A DNA stretch of 60,358 nt. Origin: an uncultured Schlesneria sp. Its GTDB lineage: Bacteria > Planctomycetota > Planctomycetia > Planctomycetales > Planctomycetaceae. The position numbers and the translations under genes are program-made. The stretch is taken from contig CAILLA010000307.1 of the NCBI GenBank assembly GCA_903834925.1, forward strand, positions 1 to 60,358. Reading direction: 5' to 3'. The notes under the pieces were generated by a model. The model saw only the letters and a program-made list of their open reading frames with translations, searched no databases and had not been told where the DNA came from. Position 1 is the stretch's first letter. Every line of letters begins with the position of its first letter. Shown here one piece after another: positions 5,201-60,358 of the stretch.

Positions 5201-5676
5201 AGTGTACCAGGACAAGGACACCTTTGTCCGCGATTGTGTAGCGTTGCAGTTCCCATACGTGTGTAACACGCCCGGAGGATTCGCGTCAAACTTAAACCAA
5301 CTCCGACATTGATTGGGGGGTGGTCGGTAATTGGTGGGCGGTCGCATTGCTGGGAACGAAGCGATTTTGGAACAGAACCCCATGTAAAGGGTGCCACGGT
5401 CTTACCGTCTTCGGTAAGGCCGTGCTCTTCGAACGCATTATTGAAACATGAAGACACGTCCTTGTCGAAGACTCCAAAACCGTGGTACCCCAATTTTGCT
5501 TGCTATTCCGCAGAGATGGCGCAATTGTGCCGACCCATCTCGCCCCACGTAAGCGTGGGGCGAAGAGTTAGGATCGCCGTTACGAAAAACGAAATAGTCT
5601 GAAACGTTTATGGATCAAGCTTCCAAGACACGGTAGACTCCTATGGACTCGGTCCACTCATAATGGAGGCGGCACA
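5201..5676. other. Intergenic region with one palindromic repeat
   Basis: No gene is visible here. The region separates the divergently transcribed DUF1501 gene and the 666-aa coiled-coil protein gene, so both promoters should lie here. It also holds the 102-base repeat at 5389-5490. No clear -35/-10 pair was recognised. Confidence 0.6.
5389..5490. repeat. Family-A palindromic repeat (102 nt), copy 1
   Basis: The ends GGGTGCCACGGT and ACCGTGGTACCC pair with one mismatch. Inside are ACCGTCTTCGGT and GTCGAAGACTCC. The reverse complement of 20259-20360 is the same length and nearly the same sequence. Confidence 0.88.
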
Positions 5677-10223: not shown

Positions 10224-10411
10224 GGTGTGATTTACCTTCTTGAAACTCGATTTCCGCTCGGTCCATTTTATAGCGAACGGACAGGTCATCTGTCGCGGGA
10301 TGGAAATCGAGAAATGGTCGACGTGTCCGCTTGTTTATCGCCGTGGTTACAGTCAAAATCCCGCAATCAACAATGATTGTTCTCCACATTATGATACTTG
10401 GAAAGCGTGCA

Positions 10412-17828: not shown

Positions 17829-17914
17829 AAAAATCCTGGTATGCTTCCTTTGTGCGGGTGATAATCACGAGTAGGCAGGCGTTATGGGGATGGGTTGGCA
17901 AAAAGTGAGTCCAG

Positions 17915-18008
17915 GTGAGCCGGGCGGCGTAAGCCCTCGGATTCGTTTATCGAATCGAAATGCGAATTAGCGAACGAAGAGTCCGAGGGCTTACGCCACC
18001 CGGCTCAC
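17915..18008. repeat. 94-nt inverted repeat, copy 1
   Basis: The left arm GTGAGCCGGGCGGCGTAAGC and right arm GCTTACGCCACCCGGCTCAC pair over about 28 bases with one mismatch. The second copy at 53917-54010 has exactly the same length. Confidence 0.92.
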
Positions 18009-18053
18009 CTCGTTTTTCGGTTTTTGTGAAACTAACTTTTTGGAGAATCAGGT

Positions 18054-20191: not shown

Positions 20192-20598
20192 GACTGACTG
20201 AGTTAACTTGATGACGCAATACTGTTGCGTCCGGGGGCGGAATAGCGGCAGAAACTTGGGGTGCCACGGTTTTGGAGTCTTCGACAAGGCCGTGTCTTCA
20301 TAGTCCGATAACGTGTTCGAAGAGCGCGGCTTAACCGAAGACGGAAAAACCGTGGCACCCTTTTTTTGGCTTTCTGTTCCCAAAGGAGATCATCCTGAGC
20401 TGCCGAAATATCCCGACTTCGGGTCGTTTCGTGAGAACTAACGGAGACGCTATTTCAAAACATTATCCGCCAACCATTCTTCCAGTCGTGACGGCCAGCG
20501 AGCGGCTAAAGTCCTGGTGACGAAGTCGGTTGTCGGATGTCAAACGGATTGAGTCTAATTAAAAACCTTTCAAGAACTCGTTTTCAGGATACGCTCCT
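20192..20598. other. Intergenic region with a family-A repeat
   Basis: No gene is seen. It holds the 102-base palindromic repeat at 20259-20360, which is followed by seven T on the plus strand, so it might also end transcription of the copper-protein operon. The remaining ~230 bases should carry the promoter of the M20 peptidase gene. Confidence 0.6.
20259..20360. repeat. Family-A palindromic repeat (102 nt), copy 2
   Basis: The ends GGGTGCCACGGTTTT and AAAACCGTGGCACCC pair perfectly over 15 bases. In reverse orientation it matches copy 1 at 5389-5490 in length and most positions. Confidence 0.92.
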
Positions 20599-35592: not shown

Positions 35593-35736
35593 AGCCCCAC
35601 GGTGGACGTGCGACTTCGTCTTAGACGAAGCGACGAAACAAGCATTGCGATCGCAAATTGTTTGACCTTCGCTTCACGCGTGCTTCAACAGTCGAAGTTG
35701 CCACAACCGAGTGCTTTGTCAAACTTCTGAATGAGG

Positions 35737-35817
35737 GACGTCTTCAGTCATGCAGTGCTCATTCGTCAGCAGAACGAGAAGACACTGCTTCTCCGAAGAC
35801 TCCGAAGCAGTGGCACA
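35737..35817. repeat. Family-B palindromic repeat, degraded copy
   Basis: The right half (AGAAGACACTGCTTCTCCGA, then AGACTCCGAAGCAGTGGCAC) matches the copies at 58150 and 58275. The left half is degraded, with GTCTTCAGTCATGCAGTGCT in place of the usual arm. Confidence 0.7.
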
Positions 35818-35888
35818 GGATCCTAATTCAGCAGTTTGACCAAGCACTGGAAATTTACGCCAATCCCATTGATGCGACCGTCAATTGA

Positions 35889-42343: not shown

Positions 42344-43702
42344 GTGTCGTGGGCTGCCGAACTGAGTATGATCGTCCTGCTGGCCCTGTTAAATGGGTTT
42401 TTTGCTGCCGCCGAAATTGCCATTCTTACGGCGAGACGCGGTCGTCTGGAGCAATGGGCTGAAGAAGGCGATAGCGCTTCGCAGGTCGCTCTGAATCTGG
42501 CCAAGGACGCAGATCGATTCCTTCCCACGGTTCAAGTTGGAATCACACTTGTCGGAGCAATGGCGTCAGCCTTGGCTGGTGCCCATTTAAAAGAACCGCT
42601 GGAAGAGATTCTTTCCAACGTCAATATCAACTGGGTTACCGAAAACAAATCAATTCTGGCGATGGCCTCAATTGTCTGTGGTGTCGGGTTTCTCACGTTG
42701 ATTCTCGGCGAACTTGTTCCAAAACGAATCGCGTTTCAGAACGCTGAGCCAATCGCTCGTTTTGTTGCCTACCCGATGTTGATTTTACAGCGAGTCTCGC
42801 GTCCCGTCATCTGGTTTTTGAAGGCAACAACCAAGTTGGTACTACAGGTTCTTGGACAGCGCACCGACCAGATGCAATCGGTATCGGTCGAAGATATTCA
42901 ACACTTGATCGACGCAGGAACTGAAGCGGGATTGCTCGAAGAATCGGAACAGAAAGTCGCCATGGAGGCGTTGCGGCTTGGCGACCGAACCGTGACCGAA
43001 ATCCTGCGACCGCGAGTCGACATCGACGCGCTGGATATCGATACTCCGTCGAACGAAGTCGTCGGCGCTCTGGCGATGTCCGGGTTTTCACGGATTCCCG
43101 TCTGTGAAGGGACCATCGATCATATTGTTGGTTTTGTCTACCTCAAGGACGTCTTTCTGCAACAGTATTTAGGGAGGCCCATTGACCTGCGCCGAATGAT
43201 TCGAGCACCGCTTTTCATTCCGAAATCGATCACGATTACTCGGCTGCTTGAGTTGTTCCGCGAACACAAAACCCAACTCGCCATTGTGCTGGACGAATAC
43301 GGTGGAACACAGGGGATGGTCACCCTCGAAGACGTTCTGGAGATGCTGGTCGGAGATATTCACGACGAACATCGTCACGGACGTGACGGAGACAGTCACG
43401 AACCCGACATTGTCCGGAGGGAAGATGGTAGCTTGTCTGTCGATGGTTCTTCGAACCTGCACGAACTTGAGACGGCTTTAGATCTGTCGCGTTGGACCGA
43501 TCCGGTTCCTCGTGGAGTCGGCACTGTATCGGGTCTTGTGCTCGCCCTGCTGAAAAGACCGCCGCATATCGGGGATGTTCTTCATTGGAATGATCTCCGC
43601 TTGGAAATCGTTGATATGGATGGTCCAAAAATCGATCGATTGCTCATTTCTCAAGAAGATGACAACACCGAACCCGCTTCCGAATCGAAGGATTCCGTCT
43701 AA
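42344..43702 (+). CDS. CNNM/CBS/CorC-type hemolysin-family membrane protein
   Basis: The 452-residue protein probably starts at GTG 42344, with GGAG six bases upstream. An N-terminal CNNM (DUF21) membrane domain (~1-190) has segments AAELSMIVLLALLNGFFAAA and ILAMASIVCGVGFLTLILGE with ELVPKRIAFQNAE. Two CBS domains follow (~205-330; LRPRVDIDALDIDTPSNEVV, FSRIPVCEGTIDHIVGFVYLKD, LAIVLDEYGGTQGMVTLEDV). A C-terminal CorC_HlyC domain (~355-440) closes it. Family members are linked to Mg2+/Co2+ efflux or ion homeostasis; the hemolysin name is historical. No obvious operon partner. Confidence 0.93.
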   Translation: MSWAAELSMIVLLALLNGFFAAAEIAILTARRGRLEQWAEEGDSASQVALNLAKDADRFLPTVQVGITLVGAMASALAGAHLKEPLEEILSNVNINWVTENKSILAMASIVCGVGFLTLILGELVPKRIAFQNAEPIARFVAYPMLILQRVSRPVIWFLKATTKLVLQVLGQRTDQMQSVSVEDIQHLIDAGTEAGLLEESEQKVAMEALRLGDRTVTEILRPRVDIDALDIDTPSNEVVGALAMSGFSRIPVCEGTIDHIVGFVYLKDVFLQQYLGRPIDLRRMIRAPLFIPKSITITRLLELFREHKTQLAIVLDEYGGTQGMVTLEDVLEMLVGDIHDEHRHGRDGDSHEPDIVRREDGSLSVDGSSNLHELETALDLSRWTDPVPRGVGTVSGLVLALLKRPPHIGDVLHWNDLRLEIVDMDGPKIDRLLISQEDDNTEPASESKDSV

Positions 43703-43892
43703 CTCAAACCTCGATAAGTTCAGGCTTGATCAATAAAATCAAGCCAGGGAAAGAGCCACGGGATGCCAACGGCAGTGTCAGGAACAGGGCCGAACGCTGG
43801 CTTAGCTTGCCAAGTTGTGTTATTTCTTTTGGATTGATTTTAAAGAAAGTCGCCAATTCTCGTTGTCCGCATTCTGTCGAAAGATCCTTTGA

Positions 43893-44363
43893 ATGGAACA
43901 ATTGTTCTCAAACTTACAAAAACTCTTCGTCGCCGGTTGGGACGTTGGAATCTCCTTATTTGCGGTCCTCATTCCCTGGACTCCACTGATTGCCTGGGTC
44001 GCCTTCTGGTTGCTGGCTGTAAACTGGGAAAAACTCTATCCGATCCTGGCGAAAGGCGCTGTGATCGGCGTGCTCCTGGTTGGCCTGATGGCAGTACTCG
44101 TTTGGGGCTTGATTGCACCCCCTCCAGACGGGGTCCATTATTTGTTTGGGTTACGTCCTTCCAATTTTGTGGGCAAAGGCGTTTACGTGACCATGTTGAT
44201 GACGATTATGGCCCTGTGTGGTTCGGTTCAACTTTCAGGCGCGTGTGGATCGCTCTTTCCTGACGAAGTCCCCGAAGAGCATCATGGGAACGACCATGAT
44301 CACGGAGATTCAAATCATACACACGCGGATCACGGGCATGGTGACCATGCTCACGCACACTGA
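43893..44363 (+). CDS. Small membrane protein with His-rich tail
   Basis: This 156-residue protein has three membrane segments (~20-42, FAVLIPWTPLIAWVAFWLL; ~53-75, GAVIGVLLVGLMAVLVWGLI; ~95-115, YVTMLMTIMALCGSVQLSG). The last 30 residues are almost only H, D, G, E, N and A (HHGNDHDHGDSNHTHADHGH and more), a likely Zn/Ni/Cu-binding tail. No enzyme motif is visible. The gene sits between a CNNM/CorC ion-homeostasis protein and an RND-type transporter, both plus strand, so a metal-handling role is possible. The family is not recognised. Confidence 0.78.
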   Translation: MEQLFSNLQKLFVAGWDVGISLFAVLIPWTPLIAWVAFWLLAVNWEKLYPILAKGAVIGVLLVGLMAVLVWGLIAPPPDGVHYLFGLRPSNFVGKGVYVTMLMTIMALCGSVQLSGACGSLFPDEVPEEHHGNDHDHGDSNHTHADHGHGDHAHAH

Positions 44364-44582
44364 TTGCACTTTGATTTCGGTGAGTCAATGAGCGACGTTC
44401 CACATCAATTGTCAATTTCCCTTGTTATTTAAAGGCATACGAGCACCTGTCGCTCGTTGCCTCCCTCAAAGCATCACCTGTCCTCGCGACGCCTCACCAG
44501 GATTCCACGAGTCGTTTTTCCGGGACGAAATGCAAAACGCGGGCCTGCAAAAATGCATGGTCCTTTGACACGAGAAGATGAA

Positions 44583-47042
44583 ATGTTTGCGAAGCTCGGC
44601 GAGTTCGTCGTCCGTGCCTGGCCAGCGGTTCTGATCGCCTGGGTCGCTGCGGTGGTCTGCGCCTCGGTTGCTGCACCTGGACTGGACCGCGTTGCCGAAA
44701 CAGAAGAATTCGCGTTTCTTCCTACCCAAAGCCCAAGTCATCTTGCGGAAAGCCTGTTTCGAAAAGCGTTTCCCGATGGCTATTGCCCGAGTCGAATCGT
44801 CATCATCGCGACCCGTGACGGCGGAATCACGCCCGAGGACGAACATTTTCTCGACGATGGCGACAATGAAGACGAAAAGTTTCCGTTCGATGATCCCGAG
44901 CGGAAATTTGAATTGCGCGAGCGATTGCTCAAAATCATGTACGACGAGGCGAATGACGATAAAGTCAGTTCTCCTATCATTTCGGGAATTCGGTCGTTTC
45001 AAGACCCCAATGCGGGTGCCTTGCTAAAAAGCAAACGCGGTGACACGAGTAATGCTCGGTTGATGCTTGTCGAACTTACCACAGAATTTATGGACGGCCG
45101 AAATCGCTGGCCTGTGGGAAAGATCGAGTCGCTGCTGGCAGACGAAGAATTTTCAAAGCATATTCCCCCAGGTTTGTCGATTTCGATGAGCGGTGAAGCG
45201 ACGGTTGGCCGGGACATGATCAACGCCGCCCGGGACAGCGCCAAAGCGACGGAATTGCTGACTTTTGTGTTGGTTCTCGGCTTGCTCGGAGCAATCTACC
45301 GTGCCCCGGCACTGGCATTCATTCCCCTGGTCACCGTCGTCATCGCCGTGAAACTTTCGATGTCCGTGCTGATCTTGTTCGCAACCCAGAAGTGGGTTGT
45401 TCTGTTTCAAGGAATCGAATCCTATGTCGCCGTCCTCACTTATGGGGCGGGTGTCGATTATTGCCTGTTCCTGATCGCCCGGTATAAAGAAGAAATTGAT
45501 GCTGGCGTCAGCTATGACGAAGCGGTCTCGAACAGTGTTGCCAAAGTCGGTGCCGCCATTGCGGCCAGCGCCGGAACTGTCATCTGCGGTATCGGCATGA
45601 TGATCTTTGCCGAATTCGGAAAATTTCGAGATGCCGGAATTGCCATCTCGTTCGGATTGACCGTCGTATTGGTCGCCTCGTTAACTCTCACTCCCGCCCT
45701 GTTGCGTTTGACAGGTAAATGGGCGTTCTGGCCGCAACTTCGGACGGAACGTGTCAGCGGCGGATGGATCTCGTCGACATCATTGTGGTCGCGACTGAGC
45801 GAGATTCACTGGCTTCAGAACACCTGGGAAATCGTGGGACGCGCCCTGATCAAAAATCCCATGACGATCTGGCTCGCCAGTATCCTGCTGATGCTACCAT
45901 TCGCCATCATCGGTGTCTTGTTCTATTCGCATCTCAGTTACGGATTGCTCTCAGACCTCAGTGCCAGTTCACCGAGTGTAAAAGGTACACGAGCGTTACG
46001 AGAGAATTTTCCGGCCGGTGCGACGGGATCGATCACAGTCCTGCTGCGAAATGACGATGTTGACTTTTCTGATGAATCAACGGGTCTCGCCTGGGTCGAC
46101 GAACTGACAGAATCCCTTTACGAGAGAAAGGCTGAACTTCAACTGGCAGATATTCGTAGCGTTTCTCGTCCACTGGGTGGTTCGGATGAACGGTTAACCG
46201 AGTTGCCCGCAGGCGGACCACGCAAAATCAAAATGCGGAAGTCAATCGACTACTACGTCTCAGACGAAGAGAGCCTGGCAACACATGTCACGCGAATTGA
46301 ACTGACTGCGGAAAACGACCCGTTTGCCCGCGATAGCATTGATCAGCTAACCCGGCTCGAACACGAAATTCGAGAAATCCTTCCGAAGGAGCTTAAGTCG
46401 AACACGAAGATCCTTGTTTCAGGTTCGACGGCCAGCATTCGTGACCTGAAAGCGGTTACTGATCGCGATCAGGTTCGGATCGACCTGCTTGTCGTTTTTG
46501 CCGTATTTGTGATTCTCGTCGTGCTTCTTCGGCGAGTTGCCCTCTGTACATATCTGATTGTGACTGTGCTCTTCAGTTATCTTGTGGCATTGGGCGCGAC
46601 GTACGCCTTCTTCTGGGCGACCGACCCCCAATTCGCGGGACTCGACTGGAAGGTCCCGATGTTCCTGTTTACGATCCTGATTGCGGTCGGTGAAGACTAT
46701 AATATTTTTCTGATGACTCGAATCGATGAAGAACAAGTGAATCATGGTCCCGTCAAAGGGGTCATTGAGGCACTCTCGAAAACGGGTCGGATCATTTCGA
46801 GCTGCGGCATCATTATGGCCGGAACCTTCGCATCACTTTGTGCCGGATCACTGAAGGGGATGATCCAGCTTGGCTTTGCACTCGCTTTCGGTGTTTTGCT
46901 CGACACATTTGTTGTGAGGCCAATCCTTGTTCCTGCGTATCTCGTGCTGCTGCACAGCGGTCGCTTCGGCAAGCTTGGAAAGTGGCTCGGTGGCCCTGTC
47001 GGCCAGCCAGAAACCCCTTTGGACCCCAAAACTCTGACTTGA
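44583..47042 (+). CDS. MMPL/RND-superfamily transporter
   Basis: The 819-residue protein starts at ATG 44583 (MFAKLGEFVVRAWPAVLIAW); the frame also contains ATG 44457 and 44553, but these add Arg-rich sequence before the first membrane segment. It shows the MMPL layout: TM1, a large extracytoplasmic domain (~35-235), TM2-6 with the Asp/Tyr region SYVAVLTYGAGVDYCLFLIA-RY, a break, TM7, a second extracytoplasmic domain (~470-650) and TM8-12 with LIAVGEDYNIFLMTRIDEEQ. The GxDY/GEDYN pairs carry the proton-relay acids of RND pumps. It may export lipids or hydrophobic compounds; the substrate is unknown. Next gene starts 11 bases downstream. Confidence 0.92.
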   Translation: MFAKLGEFVVRAWPAVLIAWVAAVVCASVAAPGLDRVAETEEFAFLPTQSPSHLAESLFRKAFPDGYCPSRIVIIATRDGGITPEDEHFLDDGDNEDEKFPFDDPERKFELRERLLKIMYDEANDDKVSSPIISGIRSFQDPNAGALLKSKRGDTSNARLMLVELTTEFMDGRNRWPVGKIESLLADEEFSKHIPPGLSISMSGEATVGRDMINAARDSAKATELLTFVLVLGLLGAIYRAPALAFIPLVTVVIAVKLSMSVLILFATQKWVVLFQGIESYVAVLTYGAGVDYCLFLIARYKEEIDAGVSYDEAVSNSVAKVGAAIAASAGTVICGIGMMIFAEFGKFRDAGIAISFGLTVVLVASLTLTPALLRLTGKWAFWPQLRTERVSGGWISSTSLWSRLSEIHWLQNTWEIVGRALIKNPMTIWLASILLMLPFAIIGVLFYSHLSYGLLSDLSASSPSVKGTRALRENFPAGATGSITVLLRNDDVDFSDESTGLAWVDELTESLYERKAELQLADIRSVSRPLGGSDERLTELPAGGPRKIKMRKSIDYYVSDEESLATHVTRIELTAENDPFARDSIDQLTRLEHEIREILPKELKSNTKILVSGSTASIRDLKAVTDRDQVRIDLLVVFAVFVILVVLLRRVALCTYLIVTVLFSYLVALGATYAFFWATDPQFAGLDWKVPMFLFTILIAVGEDYNIFLMTRIDEEQVNHGPVKGVIEALSKTGRIISSCGIIMAGTFASLCAGSLKGMIQLGFALAFGVLLDTFVVRPILVPAYLVLLHSGRFGKLGKWLGGPVGQPETPLDPKTLT

Positions 47043-51488: not shown

Positions 51489-51673
51489 TAGATCAAGTAG
51501 GGTGGGACAAGTCTTCGAAGTCCCACCAATCGGCCGGCAGGATCGTAAGCCCCGAAGAACGTGACGACACCCTTAAAACGCACATCGAACCGCCCCGGCC
51601 AGCCCATCGCCTCAAATTGAGAACGACGGGGTCAGCCGGATTAAATTGATACCGAATTGTCAAAGATCAAAGA
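51489..51673. repeat. ~185-nt dispersed repeat, copy 1
   Basis: It starts TAGATCAAGTAGGGTGGGAC, carries the hairpin GGTGGGACAAGTC/GAAGTCCCACC (51501-51527) and ends CCGAATTGTCAAAGATCAAA. The same order of segments appears at 59934-60113. Confidence 0.82.
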
Positions 51674-51682
51674 AACAACGTA

Positions 51683-51711
51683 GGGTGCGGACAAGTCTTC
51701 GAAGTCCCACC
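51683..51711. repeat. GTGGGACAAGTC hairpin, extra copy
   Basis: GGGTGCGGACAAGTCTTCGA followed by AGTCCCACC is a third copy of the hairpin element, with one inserted base (GTGCGGAC for GTGGGAC). Confidence 0.75.
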
Positions 51712-53809: not shown

Positions 53810-53916
53810 GATCCAGTTGCAGGTCGAGCATCCACTGCTTTAAGCATCTTTTGGTCGAGTAGGACATCGGCAAAAACATTTTCCAACAGCATCGATTCAT
53901 CAGAAACAAAGTCCAA

Positions 53917-54010
53917 GTGAGCCGGGAGGCGTCAGCACTCGGACTCTTCCTTCGCCAATTCGCAATCAGGTTCAATGAAAGAATCCGAGGGCTGACGCCT
54001 CCCGACTCAC
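53917..54010. repeat. 94-nt inverted repeat, copy 2
   Basis: The ends GTGAGCCGGGAGGCGTCAGC and GCTGACGCCTCCCGACTCAC pair over ~28 bases with few mismatches. Compared with copy 1 (17915-18008) several arm changes are matched on both sides (GGCGTAAGC to GGCGTCAGC and GCTTACGCC to GCTGACGCC). Confidence 0.92.
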
Positions 54011-54048
54011 CTGATCAACGCGCGAACGAAGTCCCTATTCTGAACCCA

Positions 54049-55816: not shown

Positions 55817-56455
55817 ATGCCAGAAGACTTTGTCCACGCCGACTTCAATCTTGGTAAACTCGATATCACGGATCTGGACGTCAATCCAATTCAACAATTC
55901 ACAAAGTGGTACAACGACGTCCAGGCGGCGGGGGTTTCCGAATATCCCGCGATGACCTTGGCGACATGTCCCGGCAATGGACGTCCTGCCTCGCGAATCG
56001 TTTATCTGCGTGGCTTTGACGAACGTGGATTCGCGTTTTATACAAACTACAATAGTCGTAAAGGTGAAGAACTCGCCCAAAACCCACTCGCCTCGTTGTG
56101 CTTTTACTGGAAAGAGCTTGAGCGGCAGGTTCGAATCGAAGGTCGAGTTGATCGAGTCTCGGCAGCAGAGTCGGATACTTATTTTGCAGGCCGACCTCTG
56201 AACAATCAACTTGGTGCCTGGGCATCGTCCCAAAGCGGTCCGCTCGAATCTCCCCAGGCGTTGTATGCTCGGGTCGAAGATTTCCGTCAAAAGTTCGCAG
56301 GGGGGCCCATTCCGCGACCTGCCCACTGGGGTGGTTATCGACTGGTCCCTGATCACATCGAGTTCTGGCAGGGTCGCCCAAGCCGATTGCACGATCGATT
56401 CGCTTATCTCCTTGGCAGCAACGGAGCCTGGACCGTAAACCGAATGAATCCTTGA
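55817..56455 (+). CDS. pdxH: Pyridoxamine 5'-phosphate oxidase
   Basis: PdxH oxidises pyridoxamine/pyridoxine 5'-phosphate to pyridoxal phosphate with FMN and O2. From ATG 55817 (MPEDFVHADFNLGKLDITDL) the product has 212 residues, the normal length. Motifs are NPIQQFTKWYNDVQAAG, PASRIVYLRGFDERGFAFYT, NYNSRKGEEL, WKELERQVRIEGRVDRVSA, ASSQSGPLES, HWGGYRLVPDHIEFWQGRPS, RLHDRFAY and the terminal W--NRMNP, which together carry the FMN and PLP ligands. The frame opens at 55727, but the extra residues look non-coding. The ribosome-binding site is weak. Confidence 0.96.
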   Translation: MPEDFVHADFNLGKLDITDLDVNPIQQFTKWYNDVQAAGVSEYPAMTLATCPGNGRPASRIVYLRGFDERGFAFYTNYNSRKGEELAQNPLASLCFYWKELERQVRIEGRVDRVSAAESDTYFAGRPLNNQLGAWASSQSGPLESPQALYARVEDFRQKFAGGPIPRPAHWGGYRLVPDHIEFWQGRPSRLHDRFAYLLGSNGAWTVNRMNP

Positions 56456-56568
56456 TCGGCACCTGGGCACGGAAAACAGATCTTGAATCACTTTCGTTGA
56501 CGTGCAATAGTCATTGGCCTAATGCGGGTGAAGGGAATCTCACGTCACCGCTTACATGGGGAGGAATC

Positions 56569-58143
56569 ATGTTGCGCTCATTGATTTGTCTGACGGTCTG
56601 TTTTGGAATCGGAAGCGTTGGCCTTACAGCAGAACCGGTCAAGAAATCGAAATCCGGTAAAGCCAAGGTCTCTTCCACGCCGGTGCATCCGATTCCTCAC
56701 ACCGCTTACCCTCCCATGCCTCCCGTCGATGGGATCCCACCAACGGATCCGCCTAAGGTGAGGTACATCAATGGTGATTCCAATTCATCGCCAGACACGC
56801 CAACATACATCTACCCGACCGCCGTGACTCCGGCCTCAAAACGTTCAGAACCTGTCAACACCCCTCCGGTCGACCTGAAGCCTGTCCCCCTAACTGGTCA
56901 GAAGAAATGGGAAGCGATACTCGCCCAGCCGTCCGAACTCGATTTTGGCGAACGTCAGACGGTCACCGTGAAAGAACTCTTGGACCAGCTTCGTGAACGA
57001 CACCAGCTTTCATTACGTCTGGATATCCCGACATTGTCCGCTCTTCTGGGGAAGGAAAATGTCATTGGTGAACCGAAAGAGCCCACAAAAACAGCTTCCT
57101 CGATTGCGAAACGAAACACCTCCGTTCGAGTCATCAGCGAATCACCCTCATCAAAAGTCAAGCTGATTGTGATTTCTGAACCTGATGAAAGTGCCAAGAC
57201 CGATTCGAACGACGAAGAATCTTCCGAGGCCGATGAAGACGACGAAAACTCAGCGGATTCCAAACCGATGGAAGAGGCTGGCGAAGACGAATGCGATGAC
57301 GACGACGCTGATCATGAAGACAAGACCAAAAGCGAAGACGATGACGAAAAAAAGCCGCACCGAGTGAAAAGCGATGAAGATGAAGAAAAACCTCAAACCA
57401 ATATCATTGAAGAATTTCTCACGTTCGAAGTCAACATCCAAACGATGTGCCTGAAGCAGGCAAACGTTTCGACCGTGCTTCGACAGTTGCTTGATGCCAT
57501 GCCGATCGTGTTTGGAATCGATGCGATGGAAATGCCCCTTCCAATCTCGCTCTCGAATGCCTGTCTGCTCGACTACGTTGTCGAAGACGATGGCTTGCTG
57601 ATCACTACCCGAATGCAGGCGTTGTCGCACAAGGAGACTCGCGTTTACTCAGTCAAACATTTGAAAAATCTGGATGCGGAACAGCTTGCCAAAATTGTGC
57701 GTCAGTCGATCCGTCCGTGGAGCTGGCGATCGCAAATCAACGACCTGGGCGACCAGCTCCGCGGCAGTGTGAAGATCCCATCCGAAATGGTCAAATCGAT
57801 CGTCACCACGGGAGTCCAACTCGCGGCGGCACAATCCGGTGCGACAGTCTCCATCGGCAATCCGACAGTCGCTATCGGCGATGACGACGAATCATCCGAA
57901 TCCCCGACTCCATCAGTGAAATCCAAAAAGTCCGAAGCGGAAGAGTTGGATGCTCTTGGAAACGCGACCGTCAACGGCCTGGTAACGCTGGCACACGCCA
58001 CGGTGTTAAGTCTCGAAATGGTCCATCACGCCGATTTCCCCACAGGAACGATTTTCACACTTCCGGGTAAATTGATCGTGACGCAATCACAGGCCACGCA
58101 TCGGGAAATTGCCGATCTGCTCAAACAATTGTCCGAAGACTGA
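56569..58143 (+). CDS. Exported acidic protein with secretin/STN-like segment
   Basis: The 524-residue protein starts at ATG 56569 with GGAGG just upstream. A signal peptide (MLRSLICLTVCFGIGSVGLT) is followed by a Pro-rich stretch (~25-110). Residues ~115-170 (FGERQTVTVKELLDQLRERH) look like the start of a STN-type domain, which is then interrupted by an extremely acidic insert (~195-300) of D/E/S/K. The STN-like segment continues at ~310-375 (TFEVNIQTMCLKQANVSTVL, ANVSTVLRQLL, YVVEDDGLLITTR). The C-terminus (~380-520) has YSVKHLKNLDAEQLAKIVRQ and a secretin-N-like PGKLIVTQSQATHREI. It probably acts in the periplasm. Function unknown. Confidence 0.82.
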   Translation: MLRSLICLTVCFGIGSVGLTAEPVKKSKSGKAKVSSTPVHPIPHTAYPPMPPVDGIPPTDPPKVRYINGDSNSSPDTPTYIYPTAVTPASKRSEPVNTPPVDLKPVPLTGQKKWEAILAQPSELDFGERQTVTVKELLDQLRERHQLSLRLDIPTLSALLGKENVIGEPKEPTKTASSIAKRNTSVRVISESPSSKVKLIVISEPDESAKTDSNDEESSEADEDDENSADSKPMEEAGEDECDDDDADHEDKTKSEDDDEKKPHRVKSDEDEEKPQTNIIEEFLTFEVNIQTMCLKQANVSTVLRQLLDAMPIVFGIDAMEMPLPISLSNACLLDYVVEDDGLLITTRMQALSHKETRVYSVKHLKNLDAEQLAKIVRQSIRPWSWRSQINDLGDQLRGSVKIPSEMVKSIVTTGVQLAAAQSGATVSIGNPTVAIGDDDESSESPTPSVKSKKSEAEELDALGNATVNGLVTLAHATVLSLEMVHHADFPTGTIFTLPGKLIVTQSQATHREIADLLKQLSED

Positions 58144-58149
58144 CTTAAT

Positions 58150-58242
58150 GTGCCACTGCTTGACCGTCTTCGGTCAAGCAGTGCTCTTTAACCGCCAGAA
58201 AGAGAAGACACTGCGTCTCCGAAGACTCCGAAGCAGTGGCAC
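58150..58242. repeat. Family-B palindromic repeat (93 nt), copy 1
   Basis: The ends GTGCCACTGCTT and AAGCAGTGGCAC pair perfectly over 12 bases, and inside are GACCGTCTTCGGTC and GAAGACTCC. The next copy begins 125 bases later. Confidence 0.93.
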
Positions 58243-58274
58243 AGAATCTCATTTCGAGACGTGTGACGATCAAT

Positions 58275-58367
58275 GTACCACTGCTTGACCGTCTTCGGTC
58301 AAGCAGTGCTCTTTAACCGCCAGAAAGAGAAGACACTGCTTCTCCGAAGACTCCGAAGCAGTGGCAC
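58275..58367. repeat. Family-B palindromic repeat (93 nt), copy 2
   Basis: Almost identical to the copy at 58150-58242 (GTACCACTGCTT for GTGCCACTGCTT, and CTGCTTCTCC for CTGCGTCTCC). The two form a tandem pair with a 32-base spacer. Confidence 0.93.
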
Positions 58368-58427: not shown

Positions 58428-59807
58428 ATGAGGTACCTCGAAAACGACGCCCCGTTCGACTCAAACCCGGCGCCAGGCGTCGTGGTTCGGGTCGCGATTT
58501 CACTGGCGCTCTGTTTTCCCCTCGGCTGTGCCACCACCTCTCGAATGCTGTTCGAATCGCCCACGGCGGCAGGTTTGAAGCCCGCTGAACTGGTCGATAC
58601 GACTGCGTACGGTCCCGATGGCACACCACCAATGGTGTTTCGCCAGTTGTTCGCCCAGGGAGAACGAGTCCGTGAGTCGCAGCGGCCCGCTGTCATACCT
58701 CCCAAACGATCGGCCCTGGTTCTTTCCGGCGGCGGGTCATATGGCGCTTATTCTGCCGGTGTCATCTGCGGATGGACCGAAGCAGGCAACCGACCGCAGT
58801 TTGATGTGGTCACCGGGGTCAGCACCGGAGCACTGGTTGCGGTCTTCGCCTTTTTAGGACCTGACTATGATGACGTCCTTTGTCGAAGTTATACCAGTCT
58901 GAAATCGTCGGATATCTACCGCAGAAAACATCTTCCCTGGGCGCTTTTGTCAGATTCTCTCAACGACAGTGAACCTCTGTTTCGGCAGATCCATTCGACC
59001 ATCACACCAGAAGTTGTCGAGCGGATTGCTGAGGCTCACAACTGTGGACGTCGGTTATACATCGGCACCACCGACCTGGACGGTCGCCGCCCTGTCGTCT
59101 GGGATCTGGGTGCCATCGCCGCTTCCGGAAAGCCCGATAGTCGTCAACTGATCTGTAAACTGCTGCTCGCATCGTCGGCCATTCCCGGCTTCTTCCCAAC
59201 GGTGGAAATCCCGGTTGTGGTCGATGGCAGAAAATACGTCGAACGCCACGTGGATGGTGGCCTGACCCAACCATTGTTCTTTCGCCCGCCGTACATTCCT
59301 CCTGAACAACGTTCTGCCGGGTCATTGTCGGATCTGTTGTATGGATCGGACGAATACGTCATCGTCGCAGGTAAGCTGTATGCCGACCCGCAGCCGGTAC
59401 CGACTCGGGTGATCAATATTGTCGGCGAAAGTGTTTCGACGTTTCTCTATGCCCAGACTCGCGACTCGCTCGTCAAGCTTTATATGCAAAGCCTGCTGAC
59501 GGGGATGCAATACCATCTCGCCGCTGTTCCGAACGATTTCGATGCACCGATGTCAGGAGCCGATTTCGACCCGGTCAAGATGCGAAGGATGTTTGACGAA
59601 GGACGACGCCAGGTCTTAGCGGGAACCGCCTGGCGACATACCCCACCCGGTGTCGGCAGCGGCGAAGAATTACTTCAACGAGCAGGAACAATACTCACTG
59701 TTGTTCCCCACGCTCCACAAGTGATGCCGAACCTGACGCCGCCGAATGAGATTGAAGAATCCCTGCCGGATCAAGAATCGGAGATTCCCCCGTCACCACT
59801 CGATTAG
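58428..59807 (+). CDS. Patatin-like phospholipase, probable lipoprotein
   Basis: The 459-residue protein starts at ATG 58428. Residues ~18-34 (VVRVAISLALCFPLGCATT) form a signal with a lipobox, LGC, so the mature protein is likely membrane-anchored. The patatin domain (~90-330) has the oxyanion loop VLSGGGSYGAYSAGVICGW, the nucleophile Ser in DVVTGVSTGALVAVF (GxSxG), and the catalytic Asp in ERHVDGGLTQPLFF (DGG), so it should be an active serine lipase or acyl hydrolase. ASSAIPGFFPTVEI is also typical. The C-terminal ~60 residues are Pro/Glu-rich. Substrate unknown. Confidence 0.93.
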   Translation: MRYLENDAPFDSNPAPGVVVRVAISLALCFPLGCATTSRMLFESPTAAGLKPAELVDTTAYGPDGTPPMVFRQLFAQGERVRESQRPAVIPPKRSALVLSGGGSYGAYSAGVICGWTEAGNRPQFDVVTGVSTGALVAVFAFLGPDYDDVLCRSYTSLKSSDIYRRKHLPWALLSDSLNDSEPLFRQIHSTITPEVVERIAEAHNCGRRLYIGTTDLDGRRPVVWDLGAIAASGKPDSRQLICKLLLASSAIPGFFPTVEIPVVVDGRKYVERHVDGGLTQPLFFRPPYIPPEQRSAGSLSDLLYGSDEYVIVAGKLYADPQPVPTRVINIVGESVSTFLYAQTRDSLVKLYMQSLLTGMQYHLAAVPNDFDAPMSGADFDPVKMRRMFDEGRRQVLAGTAWRHTPPGVGSGEELLQRAGTILTVVPHAPQVMPNLTPPNEIEESLPDQESEIPPSPLD

Positions 59808-59840
59808 CGTTTCGGCTCCAAAGCGGTAATGCAGCGGTAG

Positions 59841-59867
59841 GGTGGGACAAGTCTGCGAAGTCCCACC
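59841..59867. repeat. GTGGGACAAGTC hairpin, single copy
   Basis: GGTGGGACAAGTCTGCGAAG followed by TCCCACC is the same hairpin as at 51501-51527, with CTGCG for CTTCG in the centre. Confidence 0.8.
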
Positions 59868-59933: not shown

Positions 59934-60113
59934 GTAGATCAAGTAACGTGGGACAAGTCCGCGAAGTCCCACCACACCGTTCGCAGGATGGTAGTCATCG
60001 AGGCCGCAACCGCATCCTCAAAGCGCACATCGCCCCCTGGCTGGCCCGTCGCCTCAAATGGACGACGGGGTCAGCCGTATAAAATTTTTGCCGAATTGTC
60101 AAAGATCAAAGTC
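59934..60113. repeat. ~180-nt dispersed repeat, copy 2
   Basis: It starts TAGATCAAGTAACGTGGGAC, carries the hairpin at 59948-59973, and ends GAATTGTCAAAGATCAAA, in the same order as 51489-51673. In one frame it reads RNRILKAHIAPWLARRLKW, which looks like the C-terminal end of a protein, perhaps a transposase. Confidence 0.8.
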
Positions 60114-60185: not shown

Positions 60186-60358
60186 GCTTTCCAACCTGGC
60201 TCGCCCAGGTGGGAGCAAATTTGGAAACCAGACAACGCTCCTCCCGAAAGATTGTGTTCTGGCTTTCCACCTTGGCTTGTCCAGGTGGAAGCAAATTTGG
60301 AAACCAGATAACGCTCCTCCCGAAAGATTGTGTTCTGGCTTTCCACCTTGGCTTGTCC
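60186..60358. repeat. 76-nt tandem repeat, at least 2.3 units, cut by window edge
   Basis: Units begin at 60186, 60262 and 60338 (partial). Each starts GCTTTCCA and ends GATTGTGTTCTG. Units 1 and 2 differ at five positions or so. Inside each unit CCACCT...AGGTGG forms a hairpin. Confidence 0.95.

Follow-up and report, generated by a model that had tools for sequence, protein, structure and literature searches.

Background

For a MITE, a partner transposase in the same genome is usual but not defining, and the partner can be lost. The ends of a MITE are expected to be conserved because the transposase reads them. Correia elements are linked to IS630. According to the parts of two published accounts that were available to us, the RUP element of Streptococcus pneumoniae is moved by IS630-Spn1 and has inverted-repeat ends like those of the IS630 element (PMC2229807, PMC3049150). 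The elements described here, from an uncultured Schlesneria sp., have ends that differ and appear to decay, and an inner double hairpin that is common to them and kept. Our preferred explanation, to which we give somewhat better than even chances, is that of a genus-wide MITE superfamily, with one subfamily (B) moved by IS630 in trans and the double hairpin kept by selection, likely as DNA.

Copies in the window and across the genus

The window analysed is a stretch of 60,358 nucleotides, which is contig C307 of a 9.02 Mb genome in 307 contigs. The initial annotation had listed five palindromic copies in it and covered only their core (about 93-102 nt), which is surrounded by larger elements. 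All five sites were confirmed (Table 1), and a covariance model built from 55 copies places them in a single family, with scores of 59.1 to 108.5 bits on the best strand. The division into subfamilies A and B, which differ in their closing pairs, also holds. The 35737 copy is without a GTGCCAC end and part of the left arm, and the foot deviates in the 58275 copy, which starts GTACCAC, and in the copy at about 5390, which terminates GTGGTAC. The strand of the 20259 copy is corrected here to minus. A search of the window against Rfam gave no match above the gathering score.

Table 1. Features of the A and B subfamilies in the window (orthologous places are in the related genomes G001, G002 and G005)
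Feature	Position	Strand	Remarks
Subfamily A core (two inverted hairpins, GGTGC/GCACC foot)	5390..5489	+	Orthologous copy in G005, L183:3016-3115
Whole A element, approximate	5321..5565	+	Scaffold decayed, ends not sharp
Subfamily A core	20260..20359	-	Orthologous copy, L185:1917-2016
A scaffold around the 20260..20359 core, approximate	20210..20430	-	
Subfamily B element, left core arm damaged	35709..35849	+	Terminal inverted repeats 35709-35736, 35822-35849
Subfamily B core, first of tandem pair	58150..58242	+	Starts 7 nt past the end of reading frame 56452-58143
Subfamily B core, second of tandem pair	58275..58367	+	Orthologous places in G005, G001 and G002: one decayed left hairpin

The copies form part of a superfamily that extends across the genus and probably consists of non-autonomous elements with inverted repeats. 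Searching the genome with the covariance model, as had been proposed with the first description of the repeat, gave at least 150 matches. A systematic sample (20 contigs, from the first base up to 20 kb each, 250.5 kb, plus the window) held 21 distinct places outside the window and five inside, one match at E 0.089 being left out; without one clustered region, 14 places remain in 230.5 kb. This extrapolates to about 750 copies in the genome, or about 550 without the clustered region, subject to the caveat that contig starts may be repeat-enriched. A set of 21 genomes, which counts this one, had matches in 12: 11 of the 13 from the genus and 1 of the 8 others. With stricter filters, four of 294 genomes in a phylum sample had matches, again counting this one, and the 16 same-family members of other genera listed in that sample had none. 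An exact 41-nt pattern was found in 37 stretches among 84,980 species genomes, all titled uncultured Schlesneria, in a collection that may omit records of this genome itself.

Other repeats are present in the window. A GTAG-tagged palindromic repeat, GTAGGGTGGGACAAGTCTTCGAAGTCCCACC, lies at 51497-51527, 51680-51711, 59837-59867 and 59948-59973 and has the look of a genuine GTAG-type REP, with the tag lost in the 59948-59973 copy. A tandem 76-nt repeat occupies 60186-60337, and a similar-looking repeat precedes a Y1 transposase-like reading frame in L069. Another palindromic intergenic repeat, AGGTGAGCCGGGCGGCGTAAGCCC, forms a pair in opposite orientation (17912-18017 and 53908-54013). The segment 23272-51350 is inverted relative to contigs of G001, G002 and G005.

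Structure of the core and its scaffolds

A well-kept element was shown to consist of an outer inverted-repeat scaffold and a common core of two inverted, imperfect 30-nt hairpins. The right hairpin is an inverted relative of the left one, and the foot of the core is GTGC/GCAC. Left tips read ACCG-TCTT-CGGT, and right tips, on the other strand, start GGAG-TCTT. The scaffolds are longer than the core, are themselves inverted repeats and differ between subfamilies. The A element, of about 256 bp, is bounded by TGGYCTGATGAAACGRCC and its complement and measures 252-261 bp in 17 of 66 copies. The B element, of about 154 bp, is bounded by TAGTGCTTTGTCAAACTTC and its complement and measures 149-158 bp in 11 of 73 copies; both counts required both ends, with at most five mismatches each, and include copies of relatives. 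Beyond A and B, copies with core type C have ends resembling GGCAACGCCGTGAAGG, and there may be a fourth set, with ends in CACTAG. The core also occurs in tandem arrays, for example on contigs C57, C68, C265 and C93.

A-type ends elsewhere were followed up at 30 loci searched for cores, 14 of which were inspected by eye. At L148:1501-1700 and L152:1501-1700, an A-type left scaffold is joined to a different palindrome bounded by GTGCCACTGG or GTGGCACTGG, and the junctions look as if core modules were swapped.

Folding and covariation

Folded as RNA, the A and B consensus sequences reach -52.4 to -63.1 kcal/mol on either strand (z -7.4 to -10.5), a level attained by none of 200 shuffles. Both arms had been described as having changed together; paired changes do occur, and they fit two side-by-side hairpins better than the one long hairpin. 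In 27 B copies, the two-hairpin fold has six pairs changed on both sides versus 2.0 in shuffled alignments, and its score (0.080 versus 0.032) was reached in 0 of 500 shuffles; slid versions of this fold gave 0-1 doubly changed pairs. For the long hairpin, the same copies gave two such pairs versus 2.1 and a score of 0.040 versus 0.031 (11 of 500). Scores for 29 A copies were 0.043 versus 0.029 (0 of 500) for two hairpins and 0.030 versus 0.020 (3 of 500) for the long hairpin, with one doubly changed pair per fold, an outer pair common to both. In larger sets, 63 B copies had 50 doubly changed cells in the two-hairpin fold (13.4 shuffled, maximum 21) and 23 in the long hairpin (15.3 shuffled, maximum 22), and 58 A copies had nine (1.3 shuffled) and eight (3.5 shuffled), respectively. 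The covariation favours two hairpins over a single long one. The long single hairpin was set aside as the kept fold, being the weaker of the two: in the 27 B and 29 A copies its score exceeds that of the shuffles but its number of doubly changed pairs does not. Paired changes in L012 and L022 are compatible only with the long hairpin, so both folds may form.

Templated repair inside the palindrome (quasipalindrome correction) could also keep the arms alike and make paired changes. Each core offers it four near-identical half-arms, and paired changes of both the local and the long type occur. Tips have been exchanged in two copies of the systematic sample, as copying from arm to arm would produce: L302:7114-7211 carries a left-type tip in the right arm and L306:4784-4880 a right-type half-tip in the left arm. 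The A left stem, however, keeps two U-G pairs in 28 and 22 of 29 copies, and in no subfamily seen has the consensus lost the difference between left and right tips. Survival of such fixed mismatches argues against frequent correction, which should erase them, and we regard repair as an improbable source of the pattern.

Probable mobility of subfamily B

That the repeat might be a non-autonomous mobile element, as the initial annotation suggested, is supported for B by IS630-like ends, by sites absent from relatives and by an apparent CTAG target; for A it is unproven. The B ends, CTAGTGCTTTGTCA, agree at all of 14 nt with both ends of an element resembling IS630 in G009, another member of the genus. 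This element (L392:1200-2428, 1229 bp), found among DDE_3 (IS630-type) loci fetched from the genus, has HTH and DDE_3 in separate frames, and its transposase may be defective. No core copy was found in G009, and no DDE_3 match in the present genome, a metagenome bin that may lack multicopy elements. A search for A or B ends at suitable spacing returned L392 as a convincing case and, as further places that share such spacing, window 58875-59604 and 43544-45008 and a place on C68 (772 bp).

For 21 sites, the orthologous flanks were looked for in G005, G001 and G002; at 16 of them both flanks could be aligned, which gave 42 comparisons. Seven of these showed a complete core of matching kind and 26 showed no core; the other nine had a partial, interrupted, decayed or different core. 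At three B sites, the net length difference from the three relatives equals a whole B element in nine of nine comparisons, at 151-156 bp (L022: 153, 153, 153; L010: 151, 152, 153; L023: 156, 156, 156). Differences at other B places were 152, 139 and 156 bp (L013), 106 and 106 bp (L008) and 179 and 177 bp (L026). The junction is clean at L023 and diverged at L010 and L022. CTAG stands at both ends of L023 and also at the place in G001 that corresponds to L013, where the element is missing; at these two places, TA and CTAG target duplications are indistinguishable. No counterpart of the B element at 35709..35849 turned up in G001, G002 or G005; the orthologous place aligns poorly there and was therefore not used as a clean case.

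For B, then, both IS630-like terminal inverted repeats and an element-sized difference between filled and empty sites were found, which supports the view that B behaves like an IS630-type MITE. An IS630-type transposase would have put the B copies in place by working in trans on their ends; it may since have been lost from the genome or may have been missed in the assembly. A sites differed from relatives by 55-245 bp, with no clean full-length empty site among those compared; in the 17 of 66 copies with TGGYCTGATGAAACGRCC ends on both sides, there was no consistent target duplication. G005 carries an A insertion that the window lacks at position 10318; this insertion is shortened on its right side and was not used as a clean case. 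In L339 and L350, the orthologs of L012, a second repeat of the ATCATCGCTCCGCGTGATGAGCATTG type lies inside the core and is absent in this genome. B-like cores or remnants occupy L349, L346 and L337, the orthologs of L051, where this genome has an A element.

Alternatively, the core itself could be a unit of the REPIN kind that has a tyrosine transposase (Y1, RAYT) as its mover and became trapped in more than one scaffold. An inverted pair of imperfect hairpins, a core common to different scaffolds, Y1 genes in 13 of 13 genomes and the 106 bp difference at L008, near core size, are in keeping with this. At L010, L022 and L023, however, the difference is the size of the whole B element, and the foot is GTGC, without a GTAG or CGTC tag. 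A hairpin piece was present at two of 37 Y1 loci examined (L063 and L247), the 37 being a subset of all Y1 matches in the genus, and none was tightly placed on both sides; at L069 and L070, which are one place, the likeness was limited to 20 nt matching the A loop. We consider a REPIN-like origin very unlikely. The loci examined did not support tyrosine transposases as movers. One Y1 gene, at L063, has a core some 270 bp away from its domain, and at this copy density about 0.6 cases of the kind are estimated to arise by chance for ten Y1 matches.

Genomic setting

Gene context was taken from a home-made gene finder for 129 distinct placed copies, with an overlap of more than 30 nt counted. The copies had been said to lie only between genes, which holds for 127 of the 129; two overlap predicted genes. 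Tandem gaps hold 48 copies, convergent gaps 28 and divergent gaps 16, and 35 are at sequence edges. The split of 88 A and B copies between genes follows intergenic length (chi-square p 0.49) and departs from gap number (p 0.03); neutral insertions would likewise follow intergenic length, which counts against our main explanation.

An RNA element, with hairpins at transcript 3' ends that stabilise, process (RNase III) or end transcripts in the manner proposed for NEMIS, would account for the very stable RNA fold and for copies lying closer to the nearest stop codon (median 53.5 nt) than to the nearest start (146 nt), and the neisserial NEMIS offer a precedent in what was available of one account (PMC2229807). 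Against this, 16 of 92 two-gene copies are in divergent gaps, and their arms are no further from the consensus (p 0.88; identity 0.953 divergent, 0.949 tandem and 0.944 convergent, for 16, 46 and 26 copies). Nor is there an orientation bias in tandem gaps (26 same, 22 opposite), and T-rich 10-mers past the foot were found in 12 of 258 flanks. With so few T-runs, a role of the copies as terminators was rejected, and the RNA reading as a whole is judged unlikely. A DNA-level role is preferred because the arms are equally close to the consensus between divergent genes. The evidence on the structural signal therefore leans, with low certainty, to DNA over the transcript; a protein of the host or of the transposition machinery would recognise the core as a DNA hairpin or cruciform.

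Conservation of arms and scaffolds

Selection on the folded form, proposed earlier from the paired arms, gains support from orthologous copies and is tempered by possible survivorship bias and by copying between arms as a rival. Constraint was gauged from 14 pairs of orthologs, which involve 11 copies from this genome. Arms were 93-96% identical (A 269/280, B 624/673), a figure biased upward because copies were found by core similarity, six of the 14 pairs by an exact left-arm pattern. Scaffolds of the same pairs were 72-79% identical (A 493/621, B 464/643), and loops had 107/121 (A) and 190/247 (B) identical positions. With positions treated as independent, arms and scaffolds differ at Fisher 3e-12 (A) and 1e-23 (B). 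Identity in the flanks was 84-85% (B) and 74-83% (A, where one flank aligned badly). Seven B pairs obtained via flanking genes (four own copies) gave arms 437/473 versus scaffold 325/452 (Fisher 1e-16). Dropped before the count of 14 were L014/L213 (left arm 34/34, right half missing), L017/L192 (arms 34/34 and 25/34) and L030/L211 (arms 33/34 and 32/34), the last two with the right flank unaligned, as well as L043/L363 (opposite core orientation), L051/L349 (B-like core) and the partial cores of flank comparisons.

Arm variants track orthology in B, where 12 of 20 non-consensus letters are shared with the ortholog; in A, 0 of 9 are shared, and loops follow orthology in part. B ends resemble the consensus at 80% in five copies absent from relatives and at 70% in seven shared copies, and B arms at 94% and 96%, respectively. 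From these five and seven copies, taken descriptively, B ends seem to fade with age and arms do not. After fixation, the ends would decay, and selection on pairing and sequence would keep the double hairpin.

These data also bear on a neutral account, in which only MITE remains are seen, the hairpins have no function and conservation comes from core-based copy finding. Copies were indeed ascertained via core similarity, sites track intergenic length, and 26 of the 42 flank comparisons were without a core and nine had a broken or different one. The neutral account sits poorly with the seven pairs reached through flanking genes, with B arms that exceed their own flanks, and with the vertical inheritance of B arm variants. 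Moreover, 13 of the 26 core-less places have less than 60 nt between the flanks, so that a decayed core cannot hide there. We hold neutrality to be unlikely, about on a par with an RNA element. A bolder alternative is that several unrelated MITE lineages of this one genus carry the double hairpin, as a structural signal that moves with them, to hundreds of positions between genes, and that the host retains it there by selection as a DNA structure; transposons would in this way have built up and renewed a hairpin network spanning the genome. We hold this to be somewhat unlikely; a host-kept signal could be, for example, the binding site of a chromosome-organising or repair protein.

Comparison with known systems

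In the literature surveyed, from which figures, supplements and subscription papers were outside the scope, and in the parts of the sources available, the superfamily is not described. The likenesses and differences given here refer to those same parts of the sources. By its ends and apparent target, B fits an IS630-type MITE such as RUP. It shares with RUP and Correia/NEMIS a length below 200 bp, an intergenic position, TA at the ends and a strong fold, and with RUP also inverted-repeat ends resembling an IS630 element. In contrast to these, the Schlesneria core sits in several elements with unrelated ends, it is the core rather than the ends that is conserved in old copies, and no matching transposase was found in the host genome.

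The pneumococcal BOX element is likewise modular, with a stable fold, inverted-repeat ends and longer forms with extra inner units, whereas the Schlesneria inner unit is an inverted hairpin pair common to scaffolds; the likeness is one of description (PMC3049150). Head-to-head hairpin pairs, many-copy families and clusters are shared with REP, BIME, REPIN with RAYT, and TIRtrons (PMC3733652). Unlike REP and REPIN, the Schlesneria core lacks a GTAG or CGTC tag, has no tightly flanking Y1 gene at the 37 loci examined and, in B, is inserted together with its scaffold (PMC3733652); membership of the REP/RAYT group was rejected for want of the tag and of the tight Y1 flanking. What is unusual compared with all of these systems is one conserved double hairpin within elements whose ends are unrelated. 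If selection is the cause, these copies provide hundreds of natural replicates of how part of a transposon becomes a host signal.
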